DNA from: Syntrophomonadaceae bacterium
GTDB lineage: Bacteria; Bacillota; Dethiobacteria; DTU022; UBA8154
Length of the DNA: 47,767 bases
Direction: 5' to 3'
Assembly (NCBI GenBank): GCA_003556225.1
Contig: PWRN01000055.1
Coordinates: 1-47,767 of the forward strand
The position numbers and the translations under genes are program-made. The stretch's first letter is position 1. Each line of letters opens with the position of its first letter. A model generated the notes under the pieces. That model had not been told where the DNA came from, did not search any database, and saw only the letters and a program-made list of their open reading frames with translations. Shown here one piece after another: positions 1 to 9,147 of this stretch.

Positions 1-983
1 AGCGCCCAGATCGTTTCATATTCCAAAGATGAAGTCATCTCAGTGCCGTCTTCATTGGGGTAAACGGTTGAGCAACGAATCACACAGCCGGGATGGCAGC
101 CATGGCCCATCATACCGCCGCCGCGTTTTTCGCAGGCTTCGGCCATGGCTTCCCCGCTGGTGGGCTGGGCGCCCGCGAATTTACCATCGCTGAAGTTCCG
201 GGTGGGGTAGCCGCCGGCTTCGTTGAGAATATTGACCAAAACAGCGGTCCCGAAACTGTTCAGCGCCCCGCCGGGTTTGGTCACATCGTGGCTGCGCAGG
301 GCCTCCACCATCTTCTTCTGTCCCTGTTTGAAAAGGTCCTTGTCCTTGATCTCCACGCCGGGGGCGCCTTCGTCGTCCACGACCATGGCCTTTAAACCCT
401 TGCTTCCCAGCACGGCGCCCAGGCCGCCCCGGCCCGAGTAGCGGCTGGCCCGGCCCTCGGCGTCGTTGAAGCAGACCCCGGCCATGGCCATCTTGAAGTC
501 CCCGGTGACTCCGATGGTCATGATCCCGATTTTTTTCCCGTGCTGCGCAAAAAGCTGCTCATTGATTTCACTGGTCAGCTTGCCCTTCAGGTCGTCGGCA
601 GGCACCAGCTCCGCGCCGTCCTTGTTGACCTTCAAGAGATACGCACCGTCCCCGGCGATCCCTTCCACGATCACGGCTTTGATCTGCAGGCGGCCCAGGC
701 GCTGGGCTGTGGGCGTGCCGGCATTGGCTTCCTTGATCCCGCCGGTGAGGGGAGACTTGCCGCCGACCGAAATACGGCCGGAACTGGGGGCCGTAGTGCC
801 TGCCAGGATACCCGGGGAAATCACGATCTTGTTATACGGCCCCAGGGGATGACAGGCTGCCGGAACCTCGTCCAAGACAACCCTGGATGTTAAAGACCGG
901 CCGCCGAGATGAGCATACTTTTCGGGAACATCTTCTACCGTAACCTTCTTGTCCGTCATGTTTACCCTTAAGATTTTGCTCAT
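1..983 (-). CDS. Aldehyde:ferredoxin oxidoreductase, N-terminal part (cut by left edge)
   Basis: Tungstopterin enzyme that interconverts aldehydes and carboxylates with ferredoxin, in the cytoplasm. About 327 of the usual 600 or so residues are inside the window; the C-terminus lies beyond base 1. Seen: the N-terminal pterin-binding domain with GGRSLTSR and the SSGRISVGGKSPLTGG stretch, then GHGCHPGCVIRC near the window edge, a Cys-x3-Cys-x3-Cys group matching the [4Fe-4S] ligand region of the family. The start is the ATG at 983, 7 bases behind AAAAGGAGG. It follows the Fe-ADH gene on the same strand (256-bp gap, no -24/-12 element found in it), so the two probably share a transcript. The radical-SAM maturase at 7912 supports a W/Mo-pterin enzyme of this class. 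Natural substrate is not visible; acetaldehyde or other short aldehydes are plausible. Confidence 0.93.
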   Translation of the reverse strand, partial: MSKILRVNMTDKKVTVEDVPEKYAHLGGRSLTSRVVLDEVPAACHPLGPYNKIVISPGILAGTTAPSSGRISVGGKSPLTGGIKEANAGTPTAQRLGRLQIKAVIVEGIAGDGAYLLKVNKDGAELVPADDLKGKLTSEINEQLFAQHGKKIGIMTIGVTGDFKMAMAGVCFNDAEGRASRYSGRGGLGAVLGSKGLKAMVVDDEGAPGVEIKDKDLFKQGQKKMVEALRSHDVTKPGGALNSFGTAVLVNILNEAGGYPTRNFSDGKFAGAQPTSGEAMAEACEKRGGGMMGHGCHPGCVIRCSTVYPNEDGTEMTSSLEYETIWA

Positions 984-1132
984 GTTCAACCTCCTTTTCA
1001 GATAACAGATGTTGGCGAATATAACGCTTCGCCACTAATAATTATACCACACTCGTTTCCCTTTTTGAACTATCCCGTCCGGCAAATTGTCTTAAAATAG
1101 AAACTTTTTTCTTCTTGCAAAGAGAAGAAGGT

Positions 1133-1158
1133 CAGGGAGCAGGATCCCCTGCTCCCTG
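1133..1158 (-). other. 11-bp perfect inverted repeat between ADH and AOR genes
   Basis: CAGGGAGCAGG and CCTGCTCCCTG flank a 4-base loop, giving a strong hairpin in the intercistronic RNA. Read leftward it is followed by a pyrimidine-rich stretch (ACCTTCTTCTC) but no clean U-run, so it is a weak terminator at best. It may set the ADH:AOR ratio by partial termination or by protecting the upstream mRNA 3' end. Confidence 0.55.
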
Positions 1159-1239: not shown

Positions 1240-2391
1240 CTACATGGCGTTTTTGAATATGCCCTTCACGTCTGCAGCCTTGGCAACGACCGGGTTGGTG
1301 AAGCTGCAGGCATCTTTCATGGCGTTTTCCACCATGATGTCGAAGTCTTCCTCTTTCACGTCCAGTTCGGCCAGGCCCGCGGGGATGCGAATATCCATGG
1401 AAAGCTGGGTGATGGCATCCAGGGCTTTTTCCGCAGCGGCGCGAATGGAGAGGCCCTCTACCGGCTCGCCCATGGCGATAGCCATATCGACAAAGCGCTG
1501 CGGGTTGGAAATGAGGTTGAAGCGCTGCACGTGGGGCAGCAGGATGGCGTTGCAGACCCCGTGGGGCAGGTCATAGAAGCCGCCCAGCTGGTGGGCCATG
1601 GCGTGCACGTAACCCAGGCTGGCATTGTTGAAGGCCATCCCGGCCAGGAGCTGGGCGTAGGTCATGCCGTCCCGGGCTTCAAAGTTATCCCCGTTGGCCA
1701 CGGCCGTGCGCAGGTACTTGAAAATCAGCTCGATGGCCTTCAGGGCACAGGCATCGGTTACCGGGGTGGCAATGGTAGAAACATAGGCCTCCACGGCGTG
1801 GGTCAGCGCGTCCATGCCGGTGGCTGCTGTGAGGCCCGGGGGCATCTTCATCATGATCATGGGGTCGTTAACAGAAACCTGGGGCGTGGTTCTCCAGTCC
1901 ACGATAGCCATCTTCACCTTGGTATCCGTATTGGTGATAATACAGAAACGGGTGATCTCGCTGGCCGTTCCCGACGTGGTGTTCACGCAGATCATCGGGG
2001 GCATGGGTTTGGTGGATTGATTCACACCTTCAAAATCCCGGATGTGCCCGCCGTTACCGGCAACCAGGCCAACGCCCTTGGCGCAGTCGTGGGAACTGCC
2101 ACCGCCGACAGAGACGATCATGTCGCAATTTTCCTTCTTGTAGATGTCAAACCCTTCGTGGACGTTTAAATCCGTGGGGTTGGGCTGTGCCCCGGCATAC
2201 ATAACCGTTTCCAAACCCGCTGTTTTTAAATATCCTTCTACCTCACCGGGGATACCCACCTTGGGAAGATCGGGGTCGGTGACAATCAGCGCTTTTTTTC
2301 CGCCCAGATCGTTGGCAAGGTTACCTACCTCTTTCACACAACCCGCACCCATAAAGTTTACCGTTGGCATAAAAAACTGCATTACACTCAT
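1240..2391 (-). CDS. Iron-containing alcohol dehydrogenase (first copy)
   Basis: NAD(P)-dependent group III alcohol dehydrogenase of 383 residues, interconverting alcohols and aldehydes in the cytoplasm. Seen: the nucleotide-binding GGGSSHDCAKG near residue 97-106, GMDALTHAVEAY carrying Asp194 and His198, and the GYVHAMAHQ...LPHG region with His263 and His277, i.e. the full set of family metal ligands. The ATG at 2391 was chosen because AGGAGG lies 9 bases upstream; an in-frame ATG at 2466 has no comparable SD. Upstream is a sigma-54 promoter (2672-2687) with a leader of about 270 nt. The gene precedes the AOR gene on the same strand, so alcohol oxidation to aldehyde and aldehyde oxidation to acid (or the reverse, reducing acids to alcohols) are coupled. 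About the same length as the second ADH at 3475 but clearly diverged from it. Confidence 0.94.
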   Translation of the reverse strand: MSVMQFFMPTVNFMGAGCVKEVGNLANDLGGKKALIVTDPDLPKVGIPGEVEGYLKTAGLETVMYAGAQPNPTDLNVHEGFDIYKKENCDMIVSVGGGSSHDCAKGVGLVAGNGGHIRDFEGVNQSTKPMPPMICVNTTSGTASEITRFCIITNTDTKVKMAIVDWRTTPQVSVNDPMIMMKMPPGLTAATGMDALTHAVEAYVSTIATPVTDACALKAIELIFKYLRTAVANGDNFEARDGMTYAQLLAGMAFNNASLGYVHAMAHQLGGFYDLPHGVCNAILLPHVQRFNLISNPQRFVDMAIAMGEPVEGLSIRAAAEKALDAITQLSMDIRIPAGLAELDVKEEDFDIMVENAMKDACSFTNPVVAKAADVKGIFKNAM

Positions 2392-2671
2392 CCAGAAATA
2401 CCTCCTAGTTGATTTTTTCATCGTATTATTTGTGCTTCTTAACTTCTTGTTGCTCGTGTAAACCACACTACCGTTCCTCGCTCATGCTTACCCAAGAGTG
2501 TTCTCCGTTAAGATTCTCCCTTCCGAACCGGCACTGCTTTTGTCTCCACCTCCCTTGCAAGCAAATGGTTCAACATTCTTTGATAGGGGCCCAGGTGCGC
2601 TCTCTCGCATGGGCGTAAACGAAGCATTCACATCTGTGCGGAATCTGTTTGGATAATTTGAAATATTTAAA

Positions 2672-2687
2672 TGCAAGAGTTGTGCCA
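2672..2687 (-). promoter_or_regulatory. Sigma-54 (-24/-12) promoter for ADH-AOR operon
   Basis: On the minus strand TGGCACAACTCTTGCA fits the consensus TGGCAC-N5-TTGCA exactly, with GG and GC separated by the required 10 bases. The predicted start is near 2661, about 270 nt ahead of the ADH start codon at 2391. A sigma-54 activator is encoded at 6394, which supports the assignment. Confidence 0.82.
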
Positions 2688-2746
2688 TCTAGCTGCATAA
2701 ACAGCATACCCGAAAAGTTTATACTGCCGGTTTTCCTTCACCTCTT

Positions 2747-2763
2747 GCGGCGGGCCCCGCCGC
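2747..2763. promoter_or_regulatory. Candidate enhancer (UAS): 17-bp palindrome
   Basis: GCGGCGGG-C-CCCGCCGC is a perfect 8-bp dyad around one central base. It lies about 86-102 bp upstream of the predicted start of the 2672-2687 promoter, the usual distance for the binding site of an NtrC-type activator. That the regulator at 6394 binds here is inference. Confidence 0.45.
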
Positions 2764-2918
2764 GACAGCATCCTTCCCCCTGTCTTTCCGTGGATCTACT
2801 CTCCGCGGCTGCATAGGCACGGCTTCCTGGAAAAGTTCGTGACTGCGGTTCCAGGGGTAACAAAATAATGTGACGAATGCCAAAAAATTGTTGCTTTCAA
2901 CGTGATTTTGTGCTACGA

Positions 2919-3061
2919 CTAAAAAGGCAGGTACCCTACGCCCATTAACCAGAATGCCGGCATCCATAAGCCCACAAAAACCCAGGTAATCAGAGACCAG
3001 GCCAGGGCTTTCGCCGGGAATTTGCCGTAGGCGTTAAGCCATCAAATATGGCGGGGGTCAT
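2919..3061 (-). pseudogene. Small one-span membrane protein gene, frameshifted
   Basis: From the ATG at 3061 the reading frame gives MTPAIFDG and then leaves frame, stopping after 23 residues. Restoring one base near 3037 continues as LNAYGKFPAK followed by a Trp-rich hydrophobic segment (about 25 residues) and a stop at 2919, making a 47-residue protein with one membrane span. A strong SD (GAGGAGGTG) precedes the ATG, and a perfect -24/-12 promoter ends 55 bp upstream. The signals are intact, so this is either a recent loss or a single-base sequence error. It resembles the short membrane subunits that accompany some transporters, but I do not recognise the family. Confidence 0.55.
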
Positions 3062-3115
3062 CTTGTCACCTCCTCGTGAAGCATTTTTTCTGGCTATGAT
3101 CTCGCTACCCTGTTG

Positions 3116-3132
3116 TGCAACATGTGTGCCAA
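3116..3132 (-). promoter_or_regulatory. Sigma-54 (-24/-12) promoter for the small membrane gene
   Basis: On the minus strand TTGGCACACATGTTGCA matches the consensus at every conserved position, with GG-N10-GC spacing. The predicted start near 3105 is about 44 nt ahead of the ATG at 3061, so the promoter, SD and start codon are properly ordered. Transcripts could run on into the ADH-AOR operon. Confidence 0.83.
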
Positions 3133-3139
3133 AACTGAA

Positions 3140-3155
3140 GATTCGGACAAGAATC
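3140..3155. promoter_or_regulatory. Short dyad next to the upstream -24 element
   Basis: GATTC-GGACAA-GAATC, a 5-bp dyad with a 6-base centre, lies just upstream of the 3116-3132 promoter. At about -35 to -50 it is too close for a typical enhancer, so it might be a repressor or IHF-adjacent site, or chance. Confidence 0.25.
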
Positions 3156-3385
3156 CCCTTTCAAGCTGCCATGACTTGTGCTAAGATGTAAGAGAAAACA
3201 GGGACTCATGGCTGCTTCAAGGTTTTGGCCGCCTTTGATAAATTTTCAGCTTCCCGTTATTTTCGCCTTCCCTGGTGTATACCGCGGCAACCGGATGACA
3301 AAAAATTGCCTTTAAGGAACATTTTTGCGCTGATCAGGCAAGTTTTTTGTCCTGGACGTCGGAAATGGCAGGATGTGGGTAAGAA

Positions 3386-3402
3386 TTGGTTTGCTTTTTG
3401 CA
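3386..3402 (+). promoter_or_regulatory. Sigma-54 (-24/-12) promoter for the second ADH
   Basis: TTGGTTTGCTTTTTGCA keeps the invariant GG and GC with exactly 10 bases between, and the TTGG and TTGCA blocks; only the CAC of the -24 box is lost. The start is predicted near 3413, about 62 nt before the ATG at 3475. It may drive the whole rightward set ADH-kinase-regulator-maturase. Confidence 0.7.
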
Positions 3403-3474
3403 AGTTAAATAGCTTATAGCGATTTTTATAGCGATTTACCGTAACCGGATATGCTTTCATGAAAGGAAAAAACG

Positions 3475-4623
3475 ATGGAGATATTTAAGTTCATGACACC
3501 GGAAATCATTTTTGGTCCCGGAACCATGGCCCAGGTCGGGGAAAGCCTGGTGCGGCTGGGGGCAACCCGGGTCTTTCTCGTCAGCGATTGCGGCGTCCAG
3601 CAAGCACACTGGGTTGAAAAAGCTCTGAAATACCTGGATGAAGTCGGACTCACCTATGTGGTCTGGACCGGCATTACACCAAACCCCAAGGATTATGAAG
3701 TAGCCGAGGGGGCCAAGGAGTATCTCCAGGCCCAGTGTGACGCCGTTTTGGCGATCGGGGGAGGCAGCCCCATCGACGCCGCCAAGGGGATTGCCCTGGT
3801 TGCGACGAACGGGGGAAGAATCAACGACTACGAGGGCATCGATAAAGTTACCCGCCCTTTGCCGCCTATGGTCGCGGTTCCTTCCACGGCGGGCACCGGG
3901 GCGGAGGTGTCCCAGTTTTCCATCATCGTGGACAGCGGTTCAAAAGTGAAAATGACTATCATCTCCAAGTCCCTCATTCCCGATATTGCCATCATCGACC
4001 CCTATATCCTCACGACAAAGGATAAAAAGCTGACCGCCTGTACCGGGATGGATGCTCTCTCTCACGCCGTCGAGGCTTATGCCTCGCTGGCGGCCACGCC
4101 CCTGACGGATATCCACGCCTTGAGCGCCATTTCGCTCATCGGCAAATACCTTCCCGCTTCTGTCTCCAGTAACCAGAATCTCCGCGCCAAGCGCCAAATG
4201 GCCATGGCCAGCCTGAAGGCCGGGCTGGCCTTTTCCAACGCCATCCTGGGCGCCGTGCACGCCATGACCCACCCCCTGGGCGGCGAGCTGGACCTGCCCC
4301 ACGGCGAAGCCAATGCCATTCTCCTGCCTTACGTCATGGAGTTTAACCTGCCCTCCTGCATCAGCCGCTATGTTGATGTTGCGGAAGCCCTGGGAGAAAT
4401 AACCGGCGGTTTAAGTGAACGCGCCGCGGCTCTAAAAGCCATCCAGGCGGTTCGAAAACTTGCTTCCGACATTTGCATTCCAGAAAACCTTTCGGAAATG
4501 GGGCTGAAAAAGGAAGTCATTCCCTATCTCAGTCAATGCGCGATCAAAGACGCCTGCCTGATCACCAACCCCCGAAAAGCGTCCACGGAAGATATTGAAA
4601 AAATATACTACCGGGCCTACTAG
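3475..4623 (+). CDS. Iron-containing alcohol dehydrogenase (second copy)
   Basis: A second group III Fe-dependent alcohol dehydrogenase, 382 residues. Seen: GGGSPIDAAKG near residues 95-105 for nucleotide binding, GMDALSHAVEAY with Asp193 and His197, and VHAMTHPLGG...LPHG with His262 and His276, so all metal ligands are kept. Start ATG at 3475 with GAAAGGA about 8 bases upstream. It is transcribed divergently from the first ADH and has its own sigma-54 promoter at 3386-3402. The kinase gene follows 148 bp downstream on the same strand. Two diverged ADHs under one regulatory region suggest different alcohols, or one oxidative and one reductive role; the sequence does not say which. Confidence 0.94.
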   Translation: MEIFKFMTPEIIFGPGTMAQVGESLVRLGATRVFLVSDCGVQQAHWVEKALKYLDEVGLTYVVWTGITPNPKDYEVAEGAKEYLQAQCDAVLAIGGGSPIDAAKGIALVATNGGRINDYEGIDKVTRPLPPMVAVPSTAGTGAEVSQFSIIVDSGSKVKMTIISKSLIPDIAIIDPYILTTKDKKLTACTGMDALSHAVEAYASLAATPLTDIHALSAISLIGKYLPASVSSNQNLRAKRQMAMASLKAGLAFSNAILGAVHAMTHPLGGELDLPHGEANAILLPYVMEFNLPSCISRYVDVAEALGEITGGLSERAAALKAIQAVRKLASDICIPENLSEMGLKKEVIPYLSQCAIKDACLITNPRKASTEDIEKIYYRAY

Positions 4624-4771: not shown

Positions 4772-6358
4772 ATGTTGGAGAAATTGACCGGTGTTTACTC
4801 CTCGAAAAAGAGCTACTACGTTGAACTGAAGAAGCAGATCCAGGAAACAAAAAAACGCAATACCCAGCTGGAGATTCTCTTCAAGCTGGCCAAGAGCATG
4901 GATGTGGATATCGACCTGCCCGAAATTATGGACAGCATCGTGGATGAATTAAGTGAAATCCTGCCCTTTGATCACCTGGAACTGGTGGATTTCACCCGCG
5001 AAAACGGAGCACAGAACACCTTTTTTTGGAAACCCAATCATTCCTTGGCACGGCACAGCTCCTCACAAGACTTTGCCCAGGTGATCAAGATCCATCTCAA
5101 TGCCAAGAACAGCAACGTGGGAAAACTCCTGGTCTGCAATCATCAAGAAATGAACTACTCCGATACCGACCTGCTCTTCCTGGAGCAGCTGGCCGCACAG
5201 CTGTCCGTTTGCCTGCAAAACCTCAATCTTTACGAGGAAGCCATTCAGCGAAAAATCGAGTGGGAAGAAACCTTCCGGGCCGTGCAGGATCCCATTATAT
5301 TTATTGACCTGGATTACAACATCCGCCGCGTCAACGACTCGGTTCTAAACTGCTACCACCTGGAACTGGAAGAAATCGTTGGTCAAAAATGTTTCAGCTT
5401 TCTGCACAACGAGGAGGATGTCTGTAACCCCTGTCCTGTCCGGGAAGTTCTAAAAAAAGGAAAACCCTCCCAGCAGCAGATGGAAATGCGCAACGGGCGG
5501 ATCTTCGATTTTTCTTACTACCCCGTGTACAACAATAAAAACGAAATCTACGGCATTATTCAATACGGAAAAGATGTCACCAAAAAATTGGAAATGGAGG
5601 CCCACTGGCGAAACCTCTCCAAGCAGGTGGCCCTGGGGGAGATGGCCGCCCGGGTAGCCCACGAACTGAACAATCCCCTGACCGTTGTCCTGGGCAATAT
5701 CCAAATGTCTTTGTTGGATCTGACTGAAAATCACGAGGATTATAAAGCCCTCAGTGACGCTTTTAATTACGGCTTGCGCTGTCAAAAGATCGTGCACGAT
5801 CTGCTCACTTTTTCCCGGCACGATAAACATGTCATGGTGCCGCTGGATTTGCACTTTTTGCTCGATGAAAGCATGGATGCCACCCGTTTCCAGATCGATT
5901 ACCAGCAGCTCGACATCTCCAAGGAGTACTATCAGCACCTGCCGGTGATCCAGGCCAACCCCGACCAGCTTAAACAGGCTTTAATCAATATCCTCACCAA
6001 CGCCTGGGACGCCATGCAGCATACCCCTGAGAAAAGGCTGGCCATTCGAACGGGCCTAATCGACGAGAAAGTCTATATTACCATTGAAGATAACGGCTGC
6101 GGCATCCGCCCTGAGCACCACTTCAAGGTTTTCGACCCGTTTTTTACGACCAAGGAAGAGGGAACCGGCCTGGGACTCTCCATCAGCTATGGGATCATCA
6201 AAGCCCATGGCGGCGAGATCAGCCTGCGCAGCGAGGCGGGAAGCGGAAGCACCTTTCGCATCACCCTGCCGATCACACCGGAAGAACGAGAAAGAAACGT
6301 CCAGCTGCCAGGATCCCACAGCCAGGGCGATGTAAACATTTCGGAGGCGATGAAGTAA
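4772..6358 (+). CDS. Sensor histidine kinase (GAF-PAS-HisKA-HATPase)
   Basis: Two-component sensor of 528 residues with no membrane span, so a cytoplasmic sensor. Order: an N-terminal coiled-coil-like segment, a GAF domain (about 30-155), a PAS domain (about 160-270) containing a CNPCP cysteine pair, the HisKA dimer with phosphoacceptor His297 in ARVAHELNNPL, then HATPase with N box (NILTNAWDAM), G1 (DNGCGI) and G2 (GTGLGLSISYG). This is the NtrB-like layout that partners NtrC-type regulators. The next gene, 35 bp on, encodes exactly such a regulator. ATG at 4772 has GGAGG 10 bases upstream. The signal is unknown; the GAF/PAS pair and the CxxC in the PAS domain allow a redox or small-molecule input, and the neighbours point to an aldehyde, an alcohol or the redox state (inference). 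Confidence 0.93.
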   Translation: MLEKLTGVYSSKKSYYVELKKQIQETKKRNTQLEILFKLAKSMDVDIDLPEIMDSIVDELSEILPFDHLELVDFTRENGAQNTFFWKPNHSLARHSSSQDFAQVIKIHLNAKNSNVGKLLVCNHQEMNYSDTDLLFLEQLAAQLSVCLQNLNLYEEAIQRKIEWEETFRAVQDPIIFIDLDYNIRRVNDSVLNCYHLELEEIVGQKCFSFLHNEEDVCNPCPVREVLKKGKPSQQQMEMRNGRIFDFSYYPVYNNKNEIYGIIQYGKDVTKKLEMEAHWRNLSKQVALGEMAARVAHELNNPLTVVLGNIQMSLLDLTENHEDYKALSDAFNYGLRCQKIVHDLLTFSRHDKHVMVPLDLHFLLDESMDATRFQIDYQQLDISKEYYQHLPVIQANPDQLKQALINILTNAWDAMQHTPEKRLAIRTGLIDEKVYITIEDNGCGIRPEHHFKVFDPFFTTKEEGTGLGLSISYGIIKAHGGEISLRSEAGSGSTFRITLPITPEERERNVQLPGSHSQGDVNISEAMK

Positions 6359-6393
6359 TACGCGGCCAAATAACGCACTGGAGGCATGCCTTG

Positions 6394-7890
6394 ATGGTCG
6401 AGAAAAATGTTCTCGTCGTTGATGATGAAAAAGGCATCCGGGACTTCCTGGAAAGACTGCTACAACGAAAAGCGTACCGGGTATTCACCGCTGCCTCAGG
6501 CGAAGAAGCTTATGTTTTGATGGAAGATCAGCCCCTGGACCTGGCCCTCCTGGATTTAAAGCTGCCGGATACCGACGGCTTAACCCTGCTCAAACACCTC
6601 AAGGAAAAGCAGCCTTTCTGCCCGGCTATCATCATTACAGCCTACAGCACCATTCGCTCGGCAGTTGAAGCCATCCAGCTGGGGGCGTACGATTACCTGG
6701 ATAAACCCTTCACAGACATCCAAAACCTGTATGAAATTATCCACAAAGCGGTTAGCAGCAAAGAGTTAGAACAAACGACCGAACAAGATGAAGAGAGGTC
6801 CGCTGCAGCAGGATTTATCGTCGGCAAAAGCCAGGAAATGCGCCAGCTGAAACAAGTTGCCGATGTGATTTCACCCAAAGATATTACCGTCCTCATCCAG
6901 GGAGAAACAGGTACGGGCAAAGAAGTGCTGGCCCGGTATATCCATTCCATCAGCAAAAGGGCCGATAAACCTTTCATCGCCGTTAATTGCGGCGCATTTA
7001 CGGAAAGCCTCCTGGAAAGTGAGCTGTTCGGCCATGAAAAAGGCGCGTTTACAGGGGCGACCAACCTGCGGCAGGGGATCTTTGAAATTGCCAATGAAGG
7101 AACGCTGCTGCTGGACGAAATCAGCGAAGCCAGCCTGAATGTGCAGGTCAAACTCCTGCGGGTTTTAGAAACCGGGGAATACTACAGGGTAGGGGGCAAG
7201 GATTGCCTCTACTCCAATATTCGCATTATTGCCGCGACCAATGTGAACCTCGAAGAAGCGGTAAGCAGCGGAAACTTTCGCAAAGACCTGCTCTACCGAC
7301 TGGATGTGGCCCGCCTTAACCTGCCCCCGCTGCGGGAGCGCCTTGAAGATCTTCCCCGCCTGACGCATTTCTTCCTGGAAAAACACGCTTCCTCCCACGC
7401 CCAGGCGAACATATCCGAGCAGGCCCTGGCGCTGCTCAGGGCGTACCCCTGGCCGGGAAATATCCGCGAACTTTCCAACGTGATCGCCCACTCCCTGTTG
7501 ATGGCCAAAGGTCAGGAGATCAAGCCTTTTCACCTGCCGGAAAAGATCCTCTACCACAAGGACAAAAAAGCAGGGGCAGCAGGTTTTCCGGAGGTAACGG
7601 TGCGCATCCCAAACAAAGAAATAGGGGGAGACGGCCAGGACCTGGCTAATATCCTGGAATCGTTCCTGGAAAGGTTAAGCGCTTACCTGGTCGAGGAGTA
7701 TAAACACCGGGGAAAGATTAACCTCCCCGAAGTTTTGGACAGCATCAGGGCTTTTGAAGGACAGCTCGCCGTGAAAATCATTCGCGAAGTCATTGCCGAT
7801 ACCCTGGGCAACCGCCAAAGTGCGGCCCAAAAACTACATTTGAACACACGCAGCCTGCGTTACCTGTTAAAGGAAAAGAAAAAAAGTTAA
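6394..7890 (+). CDS. Sigma-54-dependent response regulator (NtrC family)
   Basis: Transcription activator of 498 residues. Order: receiver domain with phosphoacceptor Asp54 (LLDLKLPDTDG), an AAA+ sigma-54 interaction domain with Walker A GETGTGKE (170-177), the sigma-54 contact loop GAFTGA (217-222) and DEISEAS, then a linker of about 100 residues and a C-terminal Fis-type helix-turn-helix (NRQSAAQKLHLNTRSLRYLL). It couples ATP hydrolysis to open-complex formation at -24/-12 promoters. The ATG at 6394 has GGAGG 9 bases upstream; a TTG at 6391 is the alternative. It probably receives phosphate from the kinase just upstream. The three -24/-12 promoters in the 2392-3474 gap are the likely targets. 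Confidence 0.95.
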   Translation: MVEKNVLVVDDEKGIRDFLERLLQRKAYRVFTAASGEEAYVLMEDQPLDLALLDLKLPDTDGLTLLKHLKEKQPFCPAIIITAYSTIRSAVEAIQLGAYDYLDKPFTDIQNLYEIIHKAVSSKELEQTTEQDEERSAAAGFIVGKSQEMRQLKQVADVISPKDITVLIQGETGTGKEVLARYIHSISKRADKPFIAVNCGAFTESLLESELFGHEKGAFTGATNLRQGIFEIANEGTLLLDEISEASLNVQVKLLRVLETGEYYRVGGKDCLYSNIRIIAATNVNLEEAVSSGNFRKDLLYRLDVARLNLPPLRERLEDLPRLTHFFLEKHASSHAQANISEQALALLRAYPWPGNIRELSNVIAHSLLMAKGQEIKPFHLPEKILYHKDKKAGAAGFPEVTVRIPNKEIGGDGQDLANILESFLERLSAYLVEEYKHRGKINLPEVLDSIRAFEGQLAVKIIREVIADTLGNRQSAAQKLHLNTRSLRYLLKEKKKS

Positions 7891-7911: not shown

Positions 7912-9147
7912 TTGAAGACGGTTCGCACGGAGATGCCGTGGAAAAAGGGCGCAACAAGCGTGTGCGACCCGGATAAACCGTACGTTGTCCTGGAGCAGGA
8001 AAATGAAACCATCCTGTTGAAACGCCAACCGGACCTGAAAAAGCTGTACCTGGAAGTTACATCTAGATGCAACCTGGAATGCCTTTCTTGCGTGCGCAAG
8101 CACTGGACCGAAACCGCGCTGCAGGAGATGGATATGGACCTGGTGCGCCAAATTGCAGCGCAAAGCAAGGAACTTCCCCATCTTAACCGTATCCACCTGG
8201 GCGGGTTCGGAGAGCCGCTATCCCACCCGCATATCGTGGAGATCGTCAACATCTTCACTGACAACGGATTGAGGGTTTCCATGAGCACAAATGGCACCCT
8301 GCTTTACCCTGAACTCTCCGCAAGGCTTATCCGGGCGGGCCTGGAACACGTGATCGTCTCCGTTGACAGCACGGAAAAAGAGCTGTTTGAGTCCCTTCGG
8401 GTAAAAGGGGAATTGCACCAGGTCCTGCAAAACATCGACCAGCTTCAGCGCAACAAAAAACGCCTGGGCTTTCATAACCCCAGGCTGGGACTGGAATTTG
8501 TGATGATGCGCAGCAATGCCCACCAGGTGAAAGAACTTCCCTCGCTGGCGAAAGAACTGGGCGCAACATCCGTGTTGTTAACCAACCTGCTGGCCCACTC
8601 CCCGGAAATGTACCGGGAAGTGCTCTACGAGCAGCCCGGCCAGGATCGCCTGATTAAAGGAGACGTTTTGGCGCCGCCAGCCTGGGATAAACAGCCCTTA
8701 ATGCATGTTTTCCCTTCCCGCAGGACCTGGCCTGTCGTGGCAGAGGATTGGATTCTCTGGGCAACCATGACCCTGCCTCGCATGTACTGGAGCAGCGAAC
8801 GAAAGTGCAGCTTTATCGACGGGCAGGCAGCCGTGATCCGTGCTGATGGAAAAGTCAGCCCCTGTTATGCCCTTCTCCGCTCCCACCCTTACCTCTTGGA
8901 TAACCGCCAAAAACACGTGGAAGCATACCTGGTCGGCGACATCAGGGAACAACCCCTGCTTGATATCTGGACGGCGTCGGAGTATCTCAAGTTTCGTTAC
9001 ACCGTCCGCAACTACAACTTTCCCTCCTGCATGGACTGCCAGGTGAATAAATACTGTGAATACGCGCTCTCCAACGATGACTGCTGGGGCAACAGTCCAT
9101 CCTGCGCCGACTGTCTCTACTCCCAGGGGATTGTGCGCTGTCCTTGA
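7912..9147 (+). CDS. Radical SAM maturase for tungsten-cofactor oxidoreductase
   Basis: Radical SAM protein of 411 residues. Seen: the cluster motif Cys53-x3-Cys57-x2-Cys60 in VTSRCNLECLSC, a GGFGEP loop after it, and a Cys-rich C-terminal SPASM-like part ending in DCWGNSPSCADCLYSQGIVRCP-like text split over 9077-9144. This C-terminal pattern is what I know from the family named tungsten cofactor oxidoreductase radical SAM maturase, which sits beside AOR-type genes. The AOR gene 7 kb away fits. The chemistry of these maturases is not established. Start is a TTG at 7912 with GGGGGTG upstream, 21 bp after the regulator gene, so the genes are most likely cotranscribed. Confidence 0.85.
   Translation: MKTVRTEMPWKKGATSVCDPDKPYVVLEQENETILLKRQPDLKKLYLEVTSRCNLECLSCVRKHWTETALQEMDMDLVRQIAAQSKELPHLNRIHLGGFGEPLSHPHIVEIVNIFTDNGLRVSMSTNGTLLYPELSARLIRAGLEHVIVSVDSTEKELFESLRVKGELHQVLQNIDQLQRNKKRLGFHNPRLGLEFVMMRSNAHQVKELPSLAKELGATSVLLTNLLAHSPEMYREVLYEQPGQDRLIKGDVLAPPAWDKQPLMHVFPSRRTWPVVAEDWILWATMTLPRMYWSSERKCSFIDGQAAVIRADGKVSPCYALLRSHPYLLDNRQKHVEAYLVGDIREQPLLDIWTASEYLKFRYTVRNYNFPSCMDCQVNKYCEYALSNDDCWGNSPSCADCLYSQGIVRCP

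Follow-up and report, generated by a model that had tools for sequence, protein, structure and literature searches.

The 1.1-kb gap between two divergent genes for iron-containing alcohol dehydrogenases, ADH1 and ADH2, is on the whole best explained as a sigma-54 control region run by the two-component pair encoded beside it, a reading we consider likely. The window, 47,767 nucleotides in length, spans all of contig C94, one of the 108 that make up a 1.81-Mb genome. On the far side of ADH1, a gene for an aldehyde ferredoxin oxidoreductase (AOR) is cut off by the contig end; on the far side of ADH2 lie genes for a sensor histidine kinase, an NtrC-type response regulator and a radical SAM protein (Table 1). 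An Rfam search of the window returned nothing beyond one tRNA.

Two promoters in the gap, P1 and P2, match the sigma-54 consensus at every position and face ADH1. The initial annotation had reported two full-consensus -24/-12 elements on the minus strand, and both hold up as the sole exact copies of TGGCACN5TTGCW in the window. Genome-wide the pattern occurs five times, P1 and P2 included, and its reversed control has no exact copy in the 1.81-Mb genome. The three further copies comprise two inside genes and one intergenic copy that adjoins another sigma-54 activator gene; TGGCACNGGCCTTGCA on contigs C12 and C84, intragenic in both places, was ruled out as a promoter. When the gap was shuffled 1,000 times with dinucleotides preserved and scored with an approximate sigma-54 matrix that we composed ourselves, an equally good single match arose once and a pair of them never. 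By our judgement rather than by computation, P1 and P2 are almost certainly real sigma-54 promoters. They very probably switch on ADH1 under control of the neighbouring two-component system, a switch made plausible because the genome holds one rpoN gene (PF04552, E 6.2e-64) and the adjacent regulator carries a GAFTGA motif.

Table 1. Features of the ADH1–ADH2 region and of related ADH1 loci. Positions refer to the window unless a locus is named; G017 is a genome from another genus of the same family, and f6 is another family of the same class.
Feature	Position	Strand	Remark
AOR, tungsten-type aldehyde ferredoxin oxidoreductase	3..983	-	truncated by contig end
Sigma-A-type AOR promoter, TTCAAA-N17-TATAAT, extended TGG	1041..1069	-	10/12 consensus
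Terminator-like hairpin after ADH1, CAGGGAGCAGGGGATCCTGCTCCCTG	1133..1158	-	stem conserved in G017
ADH1, Fe-containing alcohol dehydrogenase, methanol/1,3-propanediol dehydrogenase-like	1240..2391	-	Pfam
P1, predicted sigma-54 promoter, TGGCACAACTCTTGCA	2672..2687	-	exact consensus; ~280 nt upstream of ADH1 start
U1b, candidate activator site, TAACAAAATAATGT	2858..2871	+	upstream of P1; in 63-nt block conserved in G017
U1a, candidate activator site, GCCAAAAAATTGTT	2879..2892	+	upstream of P1; same 63-nt block; exact pattern match
Scar of AmiS/UreI-type channel gene	2919..3061	-	initial codons and ribosome-binding site remain; bulk of gene deleted; final 39 codons out of frame
P2, predicted second tandem sigma-54 promoter, TGGCACACATGTTGCA	3116..3131	-	exact consensus; before decayed AmiS/UreI gene, toward ADH1
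U2a, candidate activator site, GACAAAAAATTGCC	3297..3310	+	between P2 and P3; direct repeat D3; exact pattern match
U2b, candidate activator site, GACAAAAAACTTGCC (minus-strand reading)	3337..3351	-	between P2 and P3; inverted near-copy of U2a
P3, weak sigma-54-like element, TGGTTTGCTTTTTGCA	3387..3402	+	3 mismatches; 72 nt upstream of ADH2
ADH2, second Fe-containing alcohol dehydrogenase, ErcA-like	3475..4623	+	NCBIfam NF041833
Soluble sensor histidine kinase: PAS, HisKA, HATPase	4772..6358	+	Pfam
NtrC-type response regulator: receiver, sigma-54 AAA+ with GAFTGA, Fis-like HTH region	6394..7890	+	
Radical SAM/SPASM protein, tungsten-oxidoreductase maturase type	7912..9147	+	TIGR04317
Near-consensus f6 promoters, ADH1 and (two genomes) AOR	L133 8964, 10400; L134 10422; L135 8393; L136 9817, 11177		

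Each promoter is accompanied by paired candidate activator sites. Two RRCAAAAAATTGYC-like sites lie 130–220 bp upstream of P1 and two lie at the same range upstream of P2. Around U1a (GCCAAAAAATTG, upstream of P1) and U2a (GACAAAAAATTG, upstream of P2), 15 of 17 bases agree, a level reached by none of 500 shuffle pairs. The second, weaker copies, U1b and U2b, flank U1a and U2a and can both be aligned in G017, where U2b corresponds to AACAAAAAATTTGAA. The exact pattern RMCAAAAAATTGYY has four matches in the genome, two of them being U1a and U2a; the others (C47:8297 and C51:3136) have no strong non-genic sigma-54 promoter within 1.5 kb. The pairs are probable enhancer sites of P1 and P2, and we infer that they serve as putative binding sites of the local NtrC-type regulator.

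The arrangement is preserved in a second genus. When related genomes were searched for the same promoters, as the initial annotation had suggested, both were found kept in G017, the one other genome among 71 of the order with a close ADH1 (90%). Its contig has the same order as the window, ADH2 (88%), gap, ADH1 and AOR (90%), with P3 directed at ADH2 and with P2 and P1 directed at ADH1. The P1 counterpart, TGGCATAATTATTGCA, lies 210 nt from ADH1, and the 63-nt block upstream of P1 is 78% conserved (E 2.5e-9); the P2 counterpart, TGGCATACAAATTGCT, falls within a conserved 80-nt block that ends in P2 (E 4.5e-6). A third genome, G058, keeps the order ADH2-kinase-regulator (identities 79, 63 and 65–66%) on PUKR01000091.1, a 4.1-kb contig of a Syntrophomonadaceae MAG. 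Its kinase is the one ortholog among 60 relatives, and no other was found in 398 genomes of the phylum or in the named genome collection. Regulator and sites are not seen together in a second genome because the kinase and regulator were not found in the G017 assembly, whose contig stops inside ADH2, and the G058 contig lacks the ADH1–ADH2 gap.

The activator encoded at this locus is of the two-component kind, a response regulator whose kinase is a separate protein, and not a one-component activator of the PAS or GAF-PAS type. The kinase/activator pair that had been placed at 4772–7890 is confirmed there, as a kinase followed by an activator. The kinase lacks membrane segments and is cytosolic; its N-terminus holds a probable GAF region without a Pfam match. 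Its PAS domain contains a Cys-X10-CXXC motif at residues 207–221, conserved in G058, for which metal or redox sensing is possible. The regulator has a PF00072 receiver with Asp54 and a PF00158 AAA+ domain with Walker A and with GAFTGA at 217. Its helix-turn-helix is assigned from an ntrC model match that reaches residue 494, together with the sequence, and has no separate Pfam HTH match.

These parts suggest how ADH1 could be switched on. Sigma-54 RNA polymerase would wait before ADH1, both at P1 and at the more distant P2. The kinase would phosphorylate the regulator, which would then bind the paired sites upstream of each promoter and open the polymerase by ATP hydrolysis, giving strong ADH1 expression on the kinase's cue. 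That cue may be alcohol, aldehyde or redox state, and we likewise infer the direction in which the ADH and AOR enzymes would work in the cell. Lying between P2 and P3, the U2 pair may also activate P3 and so provide positive feedback on ADH2-kinase-regulator. A more speculative extension, which we regard as quite unlikely, would make the ErcA-like ADH2 part of the sensor as well as an enzyme: co-transcribed with the PAS kinase, it would report alcohol or redox state to that kinase, which would drive ADH1 and, via P3, its own operon. If true, this metabolite-sensing loop would couple input of the ErcA type with output of the NtrC type.

Two rival accounts concern the promoters and their activator. 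It is highly improbable that P1 and P2 are chance matches without sigma-54 function: the two intragenic copies among the five exact genomic matches presumably did arise by chance, but P1 and P2 share one 1.1-kb gap, and their position and upstream blocks are conserved in another genus. An improbable alternative accepts both promoters as real and assigns them to another sigma-54 activator of the genome, leaving the neighbouring pair to control something else. The genome does encode five clear sigma-54 activators, and the kinase and regulator went undetected in G017 despite its conserved promoters and sites. However, the remaining intergenic strong sigma-54 promoters examined in the genome adjoin their own activator genes, the G017 contig breaks just before the expected place of the pair, and G058 keeps ADH2, kinase and regulator in order. 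As a matter of judgement, not calculation, the local regulator is likely to be the activator of P1 and P2.

The roles of P2 and P3 are less straightforward. The initial annotation had allotted three promoters to two divergent genes. P1 and P2 do face ADH1, but the scheme oversimplifies: P2 stands before a scarred channel gene and, apart from that, is the second of two tandem promoters for ADH1. The scar lies directly behind P2, between P2 and the U1 sites of P1, and its 39 residues share 64–74% identity with the C-terminal end of AmiS/UreI proteins (PF02293) in four genomes (G002, G003, G005 and G013). The minus-strand frame at 2919–3061 was ruled out as an intact small membrane gene, being a frame-broken scar. 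In those four genomes the intact channel genes sit in corrinoid-methyltransferase clusters, with sigma-54 promoters nearby in G013 and G005. Given these relatives and the scar behind P2, it follows that P2 probably once drove an AmiS/UreI-type small-molecule channel gene.

P3 had been noted as a plus-strand element with GG-N10-GC. That core is present and kept in G017, but with three mismatches the element is weak evidence alone. It meets only the GG/GC core and is far from the full sigma-54 consensus; the window holds 195 sites with three or fewer mismatches, most with three like P3, a total not above chance. By itself it does not stand out over the whole gap (p about 0.08), but it does when the count is limited to the 150 nt next to the start of ADH2 (p about 0.008). 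The G017 counterpart, TGGTTTAGTTCTTGCT, stands 53 nt before ADH2 and keeps GG-N10-TTGCW. Weighing this by judgement rather than computation, we lean towards a functional P3. It is somewhat unlikely that P2 and P3 are both non-functional relics, P2 left over from the lost channel gene and P3 a chance GG-N10-GC, with ADH2-kinase-regulator transcribed by sigma-A. The mismatches of P3 and the pseudogene behind P2 fit such an account, as does a possible extended -10 element directed at ADH2 in both genomes. Against it, G017 conserves P3 as well as P2 and the block upstream of P2, although no trace of the channel gene was found there. The element in question, TTTCAA-N17-TAAGAT with TGC before the second hexamer (3159–3187), is a possible basal sigma-A promoter for ADH2-kinase-regulator.

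AOR appears to stand largely apart from this control. The locus had been proposed as a self-contained sigma-54 regulon for tungsten-dependent metabolism; this is borne out in part, by the promoters at ADH1, rpoN and a competent activator, but not for AOR, which is preceded by a conserved sigma-A-type promoter of its own downstream of a conserved terminator-like hairpin. In G017 that promoter reads TTTAAA-N17-TATAAT, the -10 TGGTATAAT being common to both genomes, and no sigma-54-like site with three or fewer mismatches was found between ADH1 and AOR in the window. The G017 AOR is full-length (581 aa, 90% identity, AFOR_N and AFOR_C domains) and nearest to solved AORs. Since the conserved hairpin and the conserved TTYAAA-N17-TGGTATAAT lie between ADH1 and AOR, sigma-A acting at AOR's own promoter is likely the main source of its transcripts, and P1 would contribute read-through at most. 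Some read-through is possible because the T-run of the hairpin, set in a pyrimidine-rich tail after a strong stem, is weak. Strict sigma-54 dependence of AOR is, in our uncomputed estimate, quite doubtful. A single sigma-54 regulon of the whole set, with AOR reached by read-through from P1, is unlikely: ADH1 and AOR are adjacent and co-oriented in the window and in G017, and AOR has its own sigma-54 promoter in two f6 genomes, but the hairpin, tail and sigma-A-type promoter separate the two genes in both the window and G017. Sigma-54 control probably extends to ADH1 only, perhaps with the ADH2-kinase-regulator genes in addition. The W-rSAM/AOR loci of family f3 (L100–L105) contain AOR and maturase genes but no ADH1, and their AOR has no sigma-54 promoters nearby.

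Sigma-54 control of ADH1 is also predicted outside the family. Four f6 genomes have ADH1 orthologs (76–80%) at loci that also hold an AOR of another subfamily (36% to the window AOR), one or two radical SAM proteins weakly resembling the window protein, and a PAS-type one-component sigma-54 activator, with GAF also in two of the four at the cut-off used. A near-consensus sigma-54 promoter precedes ADH1 in all four (TGGCACGGTCCTTGCT, TGGCACGTTTCTTGCT, TGGCATGGATCTTGCT and TGGCACGGTTTTTGCT), and G422 and G464 have a further one between ADH1 and AOR. The N-terminal half of the window kinase has no significant match to the sensory half of an f6 activator. Loci with other activators therefore suggest that sigma-54 control of the ADH1–AOR gene pair recurs.

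The wiring is not new in kind; the difference is its two-component input, a kinase plus an NtrC-type regulator. It had been thought undescribed for AOR genes, which does not stand: a 2019 study predicted that AorR and sigma-54 govern aor-moaD in Clostridium and Geosporobacter (PMC6615313), and for alcohol dehydrogenase genes such control, by AdhR and sigma-54, has been shown (PMC7017808). Experiments in C. beijerinckii established that AdhR and sigma-54 (SigL) activate adhA1 and adhA2 via three upstream sites; adhR (Cbei_2180) and adhA1 (Cbei_2181) have neighbouring locus numbers (PMC7017808). The window resembles this system in its -24/-12 promoters of alcohol dehydrogenase genes, its several upstream activator sites and its presumed activation by looping. 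Unlike AdhR, a one-component GAF-PAS activator, the window has a response regulator with a separate kinase, other-looking sites and two tandem promoters; activator sites of the AdhR/AorR regulons read TGT-N10-12-ACA (PMC6615313), and the conserved window sites are RRCAAAAAATTGYC-like. As with AorR, an AOR-type gene in alcohol metabolism is associated with a dedicated activator and with sigma-54, but the window's sigma-54 promoters face ADH1 and its AOR has a sigma-A-type promoter. AorR is assumed here to be a one-component activator from the majority in the survey, where the two-component kind makes up only about 10% of activators (PMC6615313).

Other parallels are partial. In Pseudomonas, Fe-ADH genes co-transcribed with sensor kinases (ErcA-ErcS, YiaY-PP_2683) influence alcohol metabolism (review PMC12997753). 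As in ErcA-ErcS, an Fe-ADH gene occurs with a sensor kinase tied to regulation of alcohol oxidation, but ErcA-ErcS has a hybrid kinase and quinoprotein alcohol oxidation; the window has an NtrC-type regulator, and its ADH2 scores 501.7 bits against the ErcA model NF041833, under the curated cut-off of 550. The divergent orp operons of Desulfovibrio vulgaris are reportedly co-regulated by sigma-54 and a cognate regulator, as described by Fievet and colleagues in 2011; divergent genes, sigma-54 and one local activator are shared with the window, and the orp genes are unrelated. In Solidesulfovibrio fructosivorans the adh and aor regulators are unknown and the profiles of the two differ (PMC10084766). 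On our reading, uncultured Syntrophomonadaceae-like anaerobes would join Clostridium in placing alcohol/aldehyde interconversion under sigma-54 control, with a two-component system able to replace a one-component activator as the input. Exact promoters and candidate binding sites are now available for testing, and recurrent ADH1–AOR control, with the f6 loci, helps in predicting when these organisms produce alcohols and when they consume them.

Both ADH1 and ADH2 retain the Asp/His metal-ligand motifs, and their nearest PDB entries are an NAD-dependent methanol dehydrogenase and 1,3-propanediol dehydrogenases; the best match to ADH1 is the NAD methanol dehydrogenase 8zrl (E 4e-147). The radical SAM protein matches TIGR04317 over its full length at 370.4 bits, just under the curated cut-off of 380. 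In a genome of the same genus (G001, L107 3289–3579), a radical SAM gene 98% identical lies at a contig end, and neither ADH1 nor the kinase was found elsewhere in that incomplete assembly.

Further sigma-54 loci came to light in the survey. Corrinoid-methyltransferase clusters with mtaB-like, CobW-like, RamA-like and mtaA-like genes and the AmiS/UreI channel occur in relatives at L127 8749–18428, L128 464–2771 and L125 626–6147. L127 and L128 have strong sigma-54 promoters, L127 also has a GAF-PAS activator, and such clusters are likely a sigma-54 regulon for methanol or methylated compounds. In the window's own genome, three TGGCAT-N5-TTGCT promoters surround a PAS-type activator on contig C47 (L111 4174, 10637 and 12870), near genes for an acyl-CoA dehydrogenase, a sodium:solute symporter and an MFS transporter. 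On contig C2 (L108 11874), a strong sigma-54 promoter lies upstream of a gene for a DctP-type solute-binding protein, beside another PAS-type activator.
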